From positions 434,001 through 498,000 of the forward strand of contig NZ_QXJC01000003.1 of NCBI RefSeq assembly GCF_003570885.1: a DNA stretch of 64,000 nucleotides, read 5' to 3'. The notes below the pieces were generated by a model. It was not told the origin of the DNA, did no database searches, and saw only the letters and a list, made by a program, of their open reading frames with translations. The stretch comes from Simplicispira hankyongi. GTDB lineage: Bacteria; Pseudomonadota; Gammaproteobacteria; Burkholderiales; Burkholderiaceae_C. Every line of letters starts with the position of its first letter. Within the stretch, counting starts at the first letter, position 1. The position numbers were made by a program, and so were the translations under genes. This document shows positions 49,624 to 51,556 of the stretch, piece after piece.

Positions 49624-50754
49624 TTACACCGCCGCCTTGCGCCGGGCGGTGACCGCGGCCGAGAGTTCCCCCAGCGTGGCAAGCGACGCCTCCCAGCCCA
49701 GACACGCATCGGTAATGCTCTGGCCGTGGGTGAGTGTGGCGGGGTCGTCCTTGCCGGGGGTGAACTTTTGCGCGCCCGCCACCAGGTGGCTTTCGATCAT
49801 CACGCCGAACACGCAATGCGAGCCGCCCGCCACCTGGGCCGCAATATCGCGCGCCACGTCCTGTTGGCGCTCGTACTGCTTGCTGCTGTTGGCATGGCTG
49901 CAATCGACCATGAGGGCCGGGGTGAGCTTGGCGGCGGCCAGGTCTTTGCAGGCGGCGGCCACACTGGCGGCGTCGTAGTTCGGCGTTTTTCCGCCGCGCA
50001 GGATGACGTGGCAATCCTTGTTGCCCTTGGTGTCGACAATCGCCACTTGGCCGTTCTTGTGCACCGACAGGAAGTGGTGCCCGCGCCCGGCGGACTGGAT
50101 GGCGTCGGTGGCGATGCGGATGTTGCCGTCGGTGCCGTTCTTGAAACCAATGGGGGCCGAGAGGCCCGAGGCCAGCTCCCGGTGCACCTGGCTCTCGGTC
50201 GTGCGCGCACCAATGGCGCCCCAGCTGATCAGGTCGGCGATGTACTGGGGCGAGATCACGTCGAGAAACTCGCTGCCGGCGGGCACGCCCAGGCGGTTGA
50301 TCTCGATGAGCAGCTGGCGAGCAATGCGCAGGCCTTCGTCAATGCGGTAGCTCTCGTCCAGATAAGGGTCGTTGATCAGGCCTTTCCAACCCACCGTGGT
50401 GCGCGGTTTCTCGAAATACACCCGCATCACGATCTCCAGCGTGTCCTTGTACTGTTCGCGCGCTGCCTGCAGGCGGTGGGCGTATTCCAGCGCCGCCGCC
50501 GGGTTGTGGATCGAGCACGGGCCGATGACCACCAGCAGGCGGTCGTCCTTGCCGATCATGATGTCGTGGATGTTGCGCCTGGTGCGGGTGATGAGGTTTT
50601 CCACCTTGGTGCCGCGAATCGGGAAGAAGCGGATCAAATGCTCTGGGGGTGGCAACACGGTGATTTCCTTGATGCGTTCGTCGTCGGTCTGGCTGGTTTT
50701 CTCGACGCTTCGGTACCAGGCATCGCTGGAAGGGTGTGCAGCTGCTGCGGTCAT
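49624..50754 (-). CDS. aroG: 3-deoxy-7-phosphoheptulonate (DAHP) synthase, class I
   Basis: First step of the shikimate pathway: condenses PEP and erythrose-4-phosphate. 376 residues of the AroF/G/H type. Motifs: IGPCSIHNPAAALEYAHRL, MRVYFEKPRTTVGWKGLINDP, GSEFLDVISPQYIADLISWGAIGARTTESQVHRELASGL, FKNGTDGNI, HVILRGGKTPNYD and DCSHANSSKQYERQ with metal ligands. Which aromatic amino acid inhibits it cannot be read with confidence. ATG 50754 has GAAAG about 7 bases upstream. Its leader (50789-50921) carries an aromatic-rich peptide and terminator hairpin, so attenuation is likely. Confidence 0.95.
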   Translation of the reverse strand: MTAAAAHPSSDAWYRSVEKTSQTDDERIKEITVLPPPEHLIRFFPIRGTKVENLITRTRRNIHDIMIGKDDRLLVVIGPCSIHNPAAALEYAHRLQAAREQYKDTLEIVMRVYFEKPRTTVGWKGLINDPYLDESYRIDEGLRIARQLLIEINRLGVPAGSEFLDVISPQYIADLISWGAIGARTTESQVHRELASGLSAPIGFKNGTDGNIRIATDAIQSAGRGHHFLSVHKNGQVAIVDTKGNKDCHVILRGGKTPNYDAASVAAACKDLAAAKLTPALMVDCSHANSSKQYERQQDVARDIAAQVAGGSHCVFGVMIESHLVAGAQKFTPGKDDPATLTHGQSITDACLGWEASLATLGELSAAVTARRKAAV

Positions 50755-50788
50755 GGGCTTCTTTCCGGAAAGGTTGAAACAAAGGACT

Positions 50789-50828
50789 GAAAAACAAAAA
50801 ACCGCCGGGCTTTGCAGCGTCGGCGGTT
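50789..50828 (-). terminator. Terminator hairpin in the aroG leader (attenuator)
   Basis: On the minus strand AACCGCCG pairs with CGGCGGTT across a 13-base loop, followed by TTTTGTTTTT. It lies between the leader peptide stop and the aroG ATG (35 bases away), with no gene to end before it, which suits an attenuator. The 5' arm CCGCC can instead pair with GGCGG at 50869-50873, giving an antiterminator. Confidence 0.8.
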
Positions 50829-50864
50829 GGGTGGGAAGTGTTCAGGTGCTTGCGCGCTTGCCTC

Positions 50865-50921
50865 TCATCCGCCTAGGACAGAGAACCAGAACCAAAAGTA
50901 AAAAACAGCGCGCGAAAACAT
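50865..50921 (-). CDS. aroG leader peptide MFSRAVFYFWFWFSVLGG
   Basis: An 18-codon frame 110 bases ahead of aroG encodes seven consecutive aromatic residues (Phe-Tyr-Phe-Trp-Phe-Trp-Phe, codons 7-13) and then stops. With the terminator at 50789-50828 it has the layout of a ribosome-mediated attenuator that senses charged Phe-, Tyr- and Trp-tRNA. GGCGG (codons 17-18) would be covered by a ribosome at the stop codon, freeing the terminator, and exposed when a ribosome stalls on the aromatic codons. No strong ribosome site is seen before the ATG; an in-frame TTG lies three codons earlier. Confidence 0.8.
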   Translation of the reverse strand: MFSRAVFYFWFWFSVLGG

Positions 50922-50956
50922 GGGCTGCAATGTAGCACAGCGGATAGGCGCCGTTC

Positions 50957-51511
50957 CTAACGCCTGCTCCCGCGCAGCCAGGCGAGCACGCGCTGCCAGC
51001 CCACGGGACGCACAGGTGGCGCATCGGCCGGCTCGCTGTGGGCGCTTTCACTCTGCTCGTACATGTCGATCAGCATCAGGCCTTCGCCCAGCGTGCGCCA
51101 GGCGGTCAGTTCGATGCGATCGAAGGCCGCGCTCTCTTTGGGGGTACGCTCCACCAATGCGGCATGCCAGGCGTCAGCTGCCCGGCGCAGGCCGCGCAGC
51201 GCACTCTGGTAGGCCCCCATCTCGTACAGCGCATGCCAGGCCGAACCCAGGCCGGTGACAAAGAACTGGTGCTCGCGCACGCATTTGGCGAGTTCAGCGG
51301 CCTGGCGGGTGATTTCGGCAGTGTCGGCAGCAGCCGCCTTGACGGGGGCGGTGCGCCGCACCCGGATGGCCTCGTCAATCCTTTGCGCCAGCGCCCCGAT
51401 ACTGTCGCGCAGCTGGCGTGAGTCCTCATCGGCCACCCCCGAGCGCAGGAAACGGCTGACGTCGCCAAAGGACTGGACGGTGAATTGCGACCGGGTGCGG
51501 GTGCTCGGCAT
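50957..51511 (-). CDS. Protein of unknown function
   Basis: 184 residues from the ATG at 51511 (an in-frame start eight codons earlier is possible). Mostly alpha-helical by eye, with TVQSFGDVSRFLRSGVADEDSRQLRDSIGALAQRIDEAIRVRR at the N-terminus and a basic C-terminus (RVLAWLRGSRR). No signal peptide, membrane helix or family motif recognised. It lies 45 bases downstream of tldD in the same direction, and just upstream of the aroG leader, so the aroG promoter may lie within or before it. Ribosome site not clear. Confidence 0.65.
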   Translation of the reverse strand: MPSTRTRSQFTVQSFGDVSRFLRSGVADEDSRQLRDSIGALAQRIDEAIRVRRTAPVKAAAADTAEITRQAAELAKCVREHQFFVTGLGSAWHALYEMGAYQSALRGLRRAADAWHAALVERTPKESAAFDRIELTAWRTLGEGLMLIDMYEQSESAHSEPADAPPVRPVGWQRVLAWLRGSRR

Positions 51512-51556
51512 GGCCCATTGTGCGCGAGTGCCCACGCAGAGAAAAGCAGGTACCGC

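Follow-up and report, generated by a model that had tools for sequence, protein, structure and literature searches.

A probable ribosome-mediated attenuator with an aromatic leader peptide upstream of the DAHP synthase gene aroG in Simplicispira hankyongi and its relatives

A 64,000-nucleotide (nt) stretch of the Simplicispira hankyongi genome (contig NZ_QXJC01000003.1, positions 434,001 to 498,000; hereafter the window) carries on its minus strand aroG, encoding 3-deoxy-D-arabino-heptulosonate 7-phosphate (DAHP) synthase, and upstream of this gene a short open reading frame (ORF), MFSRAVFYFWFWFSVLGG, that is followed by an intrinsic terminator. We consider it very likely that these parts form a ribosome-mediated transcription attenuator of aroG, and, judged from the sequence, the enzyme would very probably be made only when aromatic amino acids run short. 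The parts of the element, numbered by window position, are as follows.

50865-50921, minus strand: leader ORF MFSRAVFYFWFWFSVLGG plus stop, 18 codons (ATG 50921-50919, TGA 50867-50865), with no Shine-Dalgarno sequence and probably leaderless
50883-50903, minus strand: putative aromatic sensor run, codons 7-13, Phe-Tyr-Phe-Trp-Phe-Trp-Phe (from sequence, rarity control and stall model)
50869-50873, minus strand: GGCGG, predicted 5' strand of the antiterminator, in the last two codons of the leader ORF (from sequence)
50822-50826, minus strand: CCGCC, shared strand, with 50869-50873 (antiterminator) or 50802-50806 (terminator) as partner
50800-50828, minus strand: intrinsic terminator hairpin AACCGCCG...CGGCGGTT, with its T tail at 50799-50789
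50847-50920, minus strand: predicted protector hairpin (segments 1:2; RNAfold -25.8 kcal/mol), which would bury GGCGG if the leader is untranslated
50929-50934, minus strand: -10-like box TACATT, 13 nt 5' of the leader ATG, with TGC at 50937-50935 (extended -10)
49624-50754, minus strand: aroG, type I DAHP synthase of 376 residues (TIGR00034 aroFGH, 529 bits; PF00793), the gene presumed to be controlled

An earlier note on this DNA had described the 18-codon frame with its seven consecutive aromatic codons, the GGCGG and CCGCC motifs and the T-tailed hairpin after the leader, and all of these were found where it had placed them. The terminator arms, AACCGCCG (50828-50821) and CGGCGGTT (50807-50800), enclose a 13-nt loop and are followed by TTTT-G-TTTTT. 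The aroG ATG (50754), given in that note as 35 bases past the hairpin, is about 35 nt past the T tail and about 45 nt past the 3' end of the hairpin stem.

Conservation of the leader and its RNA strands

When both strands of the window were examined, MFSRAVFYFWFWFSVLGG was found to be the sole frame of 6-45 residues with at least six aromatics in eight codons. As a rarity control, 1.04 Mb of other sequence (both strands counted) from 79 related loci was found to hold one comparable frame, and a chance T-rich run was rejected on this basis. It is likewise barely credible that an ordinary terminator merely stands beside a low-complexity AT run in which the ORF is incidental: the run is rich in T, and conservation at the nucleotide level could give the appearance of a conserved peptide, but this explanation fits poorly with the rarity control and with the linkage to DAHP synthase genes of 105/109 matches in the order (see below).

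Among titled genome records, a search with the aroG protein gave 80 loci, of which those of Giesbergeria and Acidovorax were closest (92-93% identity); one locus (L005), with 31 bp of upstream sequence only, was dropped. Aromatic leader and terminator were kept in all 79 relatives having upstream sequence, the leaders varying in length, residues and codons (e.g., MSALRAYFFAYFWFPVSGGREASA in Variovorax and MNLAKFYFGYFWFSSASGGRETFA in Polaromonas), and the core YFWF was present in 74/86 loci of the window's family in five different codon spellings. Thus, as the earlier note had proposed, the aromatic run is maintained while its codons vary, and the terminator is maintained with it. Among 190 upstream regions of the order (the window, the 79 relatives and 110 further DAHP synthase genes), leader and terminator were both present in 126; L132, in which a leader and hairpin are visible by eye, was left out of the counts. 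In one genome (G158), a closer DAHP synthase relative (75%) was observed to be without a leader and a more distant copy (61%) to have one (L097 and L149), which indicates that the switch is not bound to one orthologue.

The terminator search was confined to sequence 3' of the leader, and in 9/9 family loci where an unrestricted search picked other hairpins this gave the CCGCC/GGCGG hairpin. GGCGG was located 8-19 nt past the last aromatic codon in 118/126 loci; the other eight were set aside, seven having one base changed in GGCGG and one (L135) lacking CCGCC in the arm selected. With respect to the leader ORF, 79 loci have the motif in frame 0, 34 in frame 2 and 5 in frame 1, and it is accordingly translated to Gly-Gly, to Ala and a variable residue, or to Arg-Arg. 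Its occurrence in all three frames reveals that it is conserved as RNA and not as peptide. These leaders could alternatively act like TnaC, with the nascent peptide arresting the ribosome on free aromatic amino acid and not on uncharged tRNA, for which a short aromatic-rich peptide and the YFWF core of the family would be suitable. We find this very unlikely, since the aromatics differ greatly in arrangement and number between lineages of the order (FFFFFYF, YFFWFW, FYFYFYGF) and the residues after the run shift with the GGCGG frame (PGG, APAVE, RR, LAD) such that no C-terminal motif is kept; nascent-peptide arrest was rejected because the residues past the aromatic run vary with frame and lineage.

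In the arrangement GGCGG/CCGCC/GGCGG, CCGCC is the 5' arm of the terminator and the second GGCGG its 3' arm, and the pairing of the first GGCGG with CCGCC is kept in relatives. The three strands were compared in an alignment (A1) of 65 sequences, redundancy-filtered from the 118 and including one misaligned row (L126). The base before GGCGG was found to change across all three strands, being C/G/C in 30/65 sequences, T/A/T in 11/65 and T/G/C (wobble) in 6/65; in the other 18/65, which include the window (A/G/C), the leader base has no partner in the 5' arm or one of the terminator bases deviates. Outside the order, T/A/T precedes GGCGG in 20/24 loci and the base after GGCGG is C/G/C in 13/24. 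For the terminator, 95.8% of alignment cells were paired, and covariation was 0.121 versus 0.063 in shuffled alignments (0/500 shuffles reached the score). For the antiterminator, 82.7% of cells were paired, and covariation was 0.079 versus 0.060 (1/500), with slid versions at 0.052 or less. Thus, of the two pairings that the earlier note had expected to covary, the terminator does so clearly and the antiterminator only modestly. When the segment spanning GGCGG and CCGCC was folded alone, its minimum free energy structure paired the two motifs in 118/118 loci having both, and the inner part of this segment, which often extends the antiterminator inward, folded better than its own shuffles (mean z -1.16, 83% below 0).

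Modelled ribosome stalling and the start of the leader RNA

The arrangement of these parts suggests the following mechanism. RNA polymerase would start at, or 1-2 bases from, the leader AUG, as we infer from the promoter-like box considered below, and a ribosome would load on the leaderless 5' end. With sufficient charged Phe, Tyr and Trp tRNA the ribosome would reach the stop codon and cover GGCGG, CCGCC would pair with the downstream GGCGG, and the terminator so formed would end transcription before aroG. With charged aromatic tRNA scarce, the ribosome would stall in codons 7-13 and leave GGCGG free to pair with CCGCC once the latter is transcribed, and the resulting antiterminator would allow aroG to be transcribed. 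In this species an untranslated leader would form a strong hairpin that buries GGCGG, such that termination would be the default.

Stalling was modelled by folding the RNA free downstream of the ribosome, with the 12 nt that begin at the first A-site base taken as hidden, this being the downstream footprint of a ribosome. By this approach, a codon scan of the window gave a nascent antiterminator probability of 0.985-0.999 when any of codons 7-13 occupied the A site; the value fell to 0.086 at codon 14 and was 0 at codon 15 and every later position, the stop included. In the model the aromatic run would thus end exactly where a stalled ribosome starts to cover GGCGG, the beginning of the run being unexplained by the model. 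Over 118 loci the mean nascent probability was 0.93 for the first aromatic codon, 0.97 for the last and 0.00 for the stop, and the distance from the first base of the last aromatic codon to GGCGG was 11-22 nt, with modes at 12 and 15. When no ribosome was placed, the probability for the window was 0.0004; the mean over all loci in this state was 0.46, with 56/118 favouring the antiterminator, which argues that the protector hairpin is lineage-dependent and not general among relatives.

A TAnnnT box, a feature not mentioned in the earlier note, was detected 12-14 nt 5' of the leader start in 98/126 loci (83/86 in the family and 15/40 in the others), no other position between -50 and -6 having it in more than three of these 126 loci. 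The family consensus of this box resembles an extended -10, TGTGCTACATT. Shine-Dalgarno-like 4-mers were present in 3/126 loci, and a consensus promoter scan of 50700-51100 found no -35/-10 pair. In Streptomyces lividans most promoters have 5-7 nt from box to start, according to the available text of PMC8079986, and with this spacing transcription would begin at or beside the leader AUG. The leader mRNA is thus probably leaderless, a condition described for the leader ORFs of Sinorhizobium meliloti trpL (PMC7298713 and PMC10117765, available text) and S. lividans leuL (PMC8079986, available text).

The RNA freed by termination would be leaderless and about 125 nt long, in which it resembles rnTrpL of S. 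meliloti as presented in the accessible parts of PMC7298713 and PMC10117765. The small RNA could be the main product, acting in trans like the S. meliloti trp attenuator RNA and peptide, but no pointer to any target was seen here, and we judge such a role quite unlikely.

With regard to the sequence just 5' of the leader, a 6-pair hairpin, GCTGTGCTACATTGCAGC, is located at 50924-50941 (minus strand) and overlaps the -10-like box. The leader begins 35 nt after the end of a 192-residue ORF (50957-51535, minus strand), for which NCBIfam and Pfam profile searches gave no match; read-in transcription from this upstream gene may occur. In three other loci of the order (L089-L091), the last residues of the gene preceding aroG appeared by eye to be TldD-like.

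Several findings weigh against attenuation of aroG by the proposed route. The scored element was absent from 64/190 DAHP synthase upstream regions, among them L089-L091, in which aroG begins shortly after the end of the upstream gene and the leader is absent, and the second DAHP synthase gene of the S. hankyongi genome (L082) has no leader upstream. In the window the flanking A-G of the antiterminator is unpaired, and in the alignment the modest covariation of the antiterminator includes no excess of pairs changed on both sides (2 versus 2.1), while its five core GGCGG:CCGCC pairs barely vary and hence are uninformative on covariation. The stall modelling depends on the assumed 12-nt footprint, and codons 1-6 also gave 0.68-0.94, such that in the model the sensor is bounded on its downstream side alone. 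The distance from GGCGG to the stop codon is 21-31 nt in many relatives, and a ribosome at the stop may not fully hide the motif. The strict -10 box is present in only the 15/40 loci given above outside the family and in 2/24 outside the order; in the latter set a Shine-Dalgarno-like 4-mer was found in 1/24, and by eye the box position is mostly TATATG or TATCAA. Finally, full-length equilibrium folding favoured the terminator on average in every state (mean probability 0.94-1.00), the antiterminator being favoured in only 1/118 loci with the ribosome at the first aromatic codon and 5/118 at the last. The switch would therefore have to be kinetic and act during transcription, a form of hairpin choice that is accepted for known attenuators.

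Distribution, link to DAHP synthase genes and amino acids read

The range of the element was examined with a covariance model (R1) built from 65 sequences upstream of DAHP synthase genes and applied to whole genomes by a scan that ignores the gene behind each match. In the S. hankyongi genome the single match was the aroG element, and a third PF00793 match of this genome was without an R1 match. In the window's family, R1 matched 146/150 genomes (137/141 genera). In the wider sets, which again include genomes of the narrower groups (family, order), matches were found in 106/399 genomes for the order, 8/369 for the class and 47/398 for the phylum; for sets larger than 40 genomes the search filters were stricter and only a portion of the first-look candidates was scored, such that some of the absences may be misses.

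In the order, 105/109 matches were found to precede a DAHP synthase gene (30 at the window or a fetched locus, 35 by position relative to DAHP synthase gene matches and 40 of 44 by fetched sequence), and the remaining four were weak (E 0.011-0.027). Outside the order, 4/5 class matches precede DAHP synthase, the fifth being weak (E 0.017). The phylum matches outside the order numbered 26. The 20 newly fetched ones all precede DAHP synthase; of the other six, three were among the matches read earlier. Leaders outside the order include MNAARASFYFWYYFPKPLAEEGLRSP and MITVATSYFWYFSYDSSLAAGGSRSI, and the matches outside the class are probably alphaproteobacterial. In a DAHP synthase tree of 96 proteins (midpoint-rooted FastTree, drawn without support values), leader-bearing genes were on two deep lineages, with leader-less genes near both.

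One weak R1 match, L270 (G397:C1:1711134-1711261), was observed to combine an aromatic frame, MITFSAVFNAYFYWYRSSRRLQGASLD, with a GCCGCC/GGCGGC hairpin and T-rich tail. The gene behind it is not a DAHP synthase gene and had no Pfam match; from its sequence, L270 may be a comparable switch that acts on a different gene.

Rfam contains families of amino-acid leader attenuators. Neither the window element nor 12 related loci in and outside the order matched any Rfam 15 family at its gathering score, and a known Rfam element was rejected on this basis. Regarding protein regulators, the S. hankyongi genome gave no Trp repressor match and one match above cut-off to a TyrR-type domain (PF18024, 33.1 bits).

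The composition of the run was tabulated for 174 leaders, a set that excludes the 20 leaders from the phylum search outside the order. Phe, Tyr and Trp were together in 116 of these, Phe and Tyr in 46, Phe and Trp in 5, and Phe alone in 7. All three were present in 86/87 leaders of the window's family and in 20/20 of the phylum-search leaders. The presence together of all three aromatics, from which the earlier note had inferred that the leader reads all of them at once, is thus a feature of certain lineages. Among Phe codons, TTT, which is read by wobble, accounted for 226/316 in family leaders versus 122/669 in aroG genes.

Since the codons of the run are equivalent in the stall model, its geometry permits an OR gate, in which all three aromatic amino acids would be sensed. 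As a reading that we would not yet call probable, we tentatively propose that the elements belong to one old leaderless attenuator family. It would extend over two or more classes of Pseudomonadota, with members on two deep DAHP synthase lineages, and would act as an OR gate in which lack of any single one of Phe, Tyr and Trp suffices to open the entry step of the common aromatic pathway. The same attenuator may instead sense shortage of only Phe (or Phe and Tyr), with the Trp codons as passengers, which is possible and on balance doubtful. Consistent with this alternative, Phe was present in 174/174 leaders and Trp in 121/174, with no Trp in families f4 (8 leaders), f20 (7) and f44 (7). In addition, Tyr availability is without effect on aroR of Corynebacterium glutamicum, a Phe-Tyr-Phe leader, according to the review text of PMC11802643, so that not every codon of such a run has to be sensed. 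By contrast, Trp is kept in the 86/87 family leaders, in 8/8 of family f23 and in the 20/20 phylum-search leaders, and in the model a stall at Trp codon 10 or 12 gives maximal antiterminator, which speaks against the Trp codons as passengers.

Comparison with known systems

TyrR and TrpR regulons have been reconstructed in gammaproteobacterial lineages (PMC5343134, available text), and the aroG element presents a concrete, testable control of the first step of aromatic synthesis outside lineages with such reconstructed regulons. In Escherichia coli, TyrR/TrpR repression acts on the DAHP synthase genes aroF and aroH (PMC11802643, review text). If the OR-gate reading is correct, RNA control at the DAHP synthase gene would play in these bacteria the part that such repression of isozyme genes plays in E. 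coli, and lineages would adjust the input through gain or loss of Trp codons. The element also defines an RNA family, with no match in Rfam 15, that can be annotated in many genomes, and it flags a very short ORF of a kind easily missed in annotation, as gene finders tend to skip very short ORFs. It would in addition provide a natural sensor for strains that produce aromatic amino acids.

Like the enterobacterial trpL, pheL, thrL and ilvL-type systems, the aroG element has a leader rich in the regulatory amino acid and mutually exclusive antiterminator and terminator. The enterobacterial leaders, of which thrL and ilvL are examples that read multiple amino acids, differ in that they precede other genes; in the aroG element one 5-nt GGCGG/CCGCC/GGCGG set serves both hairpins. 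In rnTrpL/peTrpL of S. meliloti the attenuator RNA has the leader AUG at its 5' end (PMC7298713 and PMC10117765, available text), a start that the aroG element would probably share; the S. meliloti system differs as a Trp attenuator before trpE.

Leader peptides with aromatic codons before a DAHP synthase gene have a precedent in the aroR attenuator, which precedes aroF of C. glutamicum and gives read-through on Phe limitation (Neshat et al. 2014, via the review text of PMC11802643). In that text aroR is actinobacterial and has a short Phe-Tyr-Phe run with no Trp named and no effect of Tyr, unlike the element described here. The uORFC-13-1 motif of Acholeplasma is a predicted upstream ORF (at least one Phe codon) with a terminator before aroF, and differs in being reported with 24 representatives, from Acholeplasma and environmental sequences only, and with Phe alone named (PMC8632094, available text). 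The accessible part of PMC1173090 lists putative attenuators linked to tyrA, which concern other operons, and a term search of the main text of a genome-wide attenuator study (PMC2965389) returned neither aroG nor DAHP. Our literature search, in which coverage of subscription papers was poor, found no aroG attenuator described in beta- or other proteobacteria. Ribosome-mediated attenuation, leaders that read multiple amino acids, leaderless leaders and an aromatic leader before DAHP synthase are each already known; the aroG element seems to be an undescribed combination of these, widely distributed and unusual in joining codons for three amino acids to a probably leaderless start.
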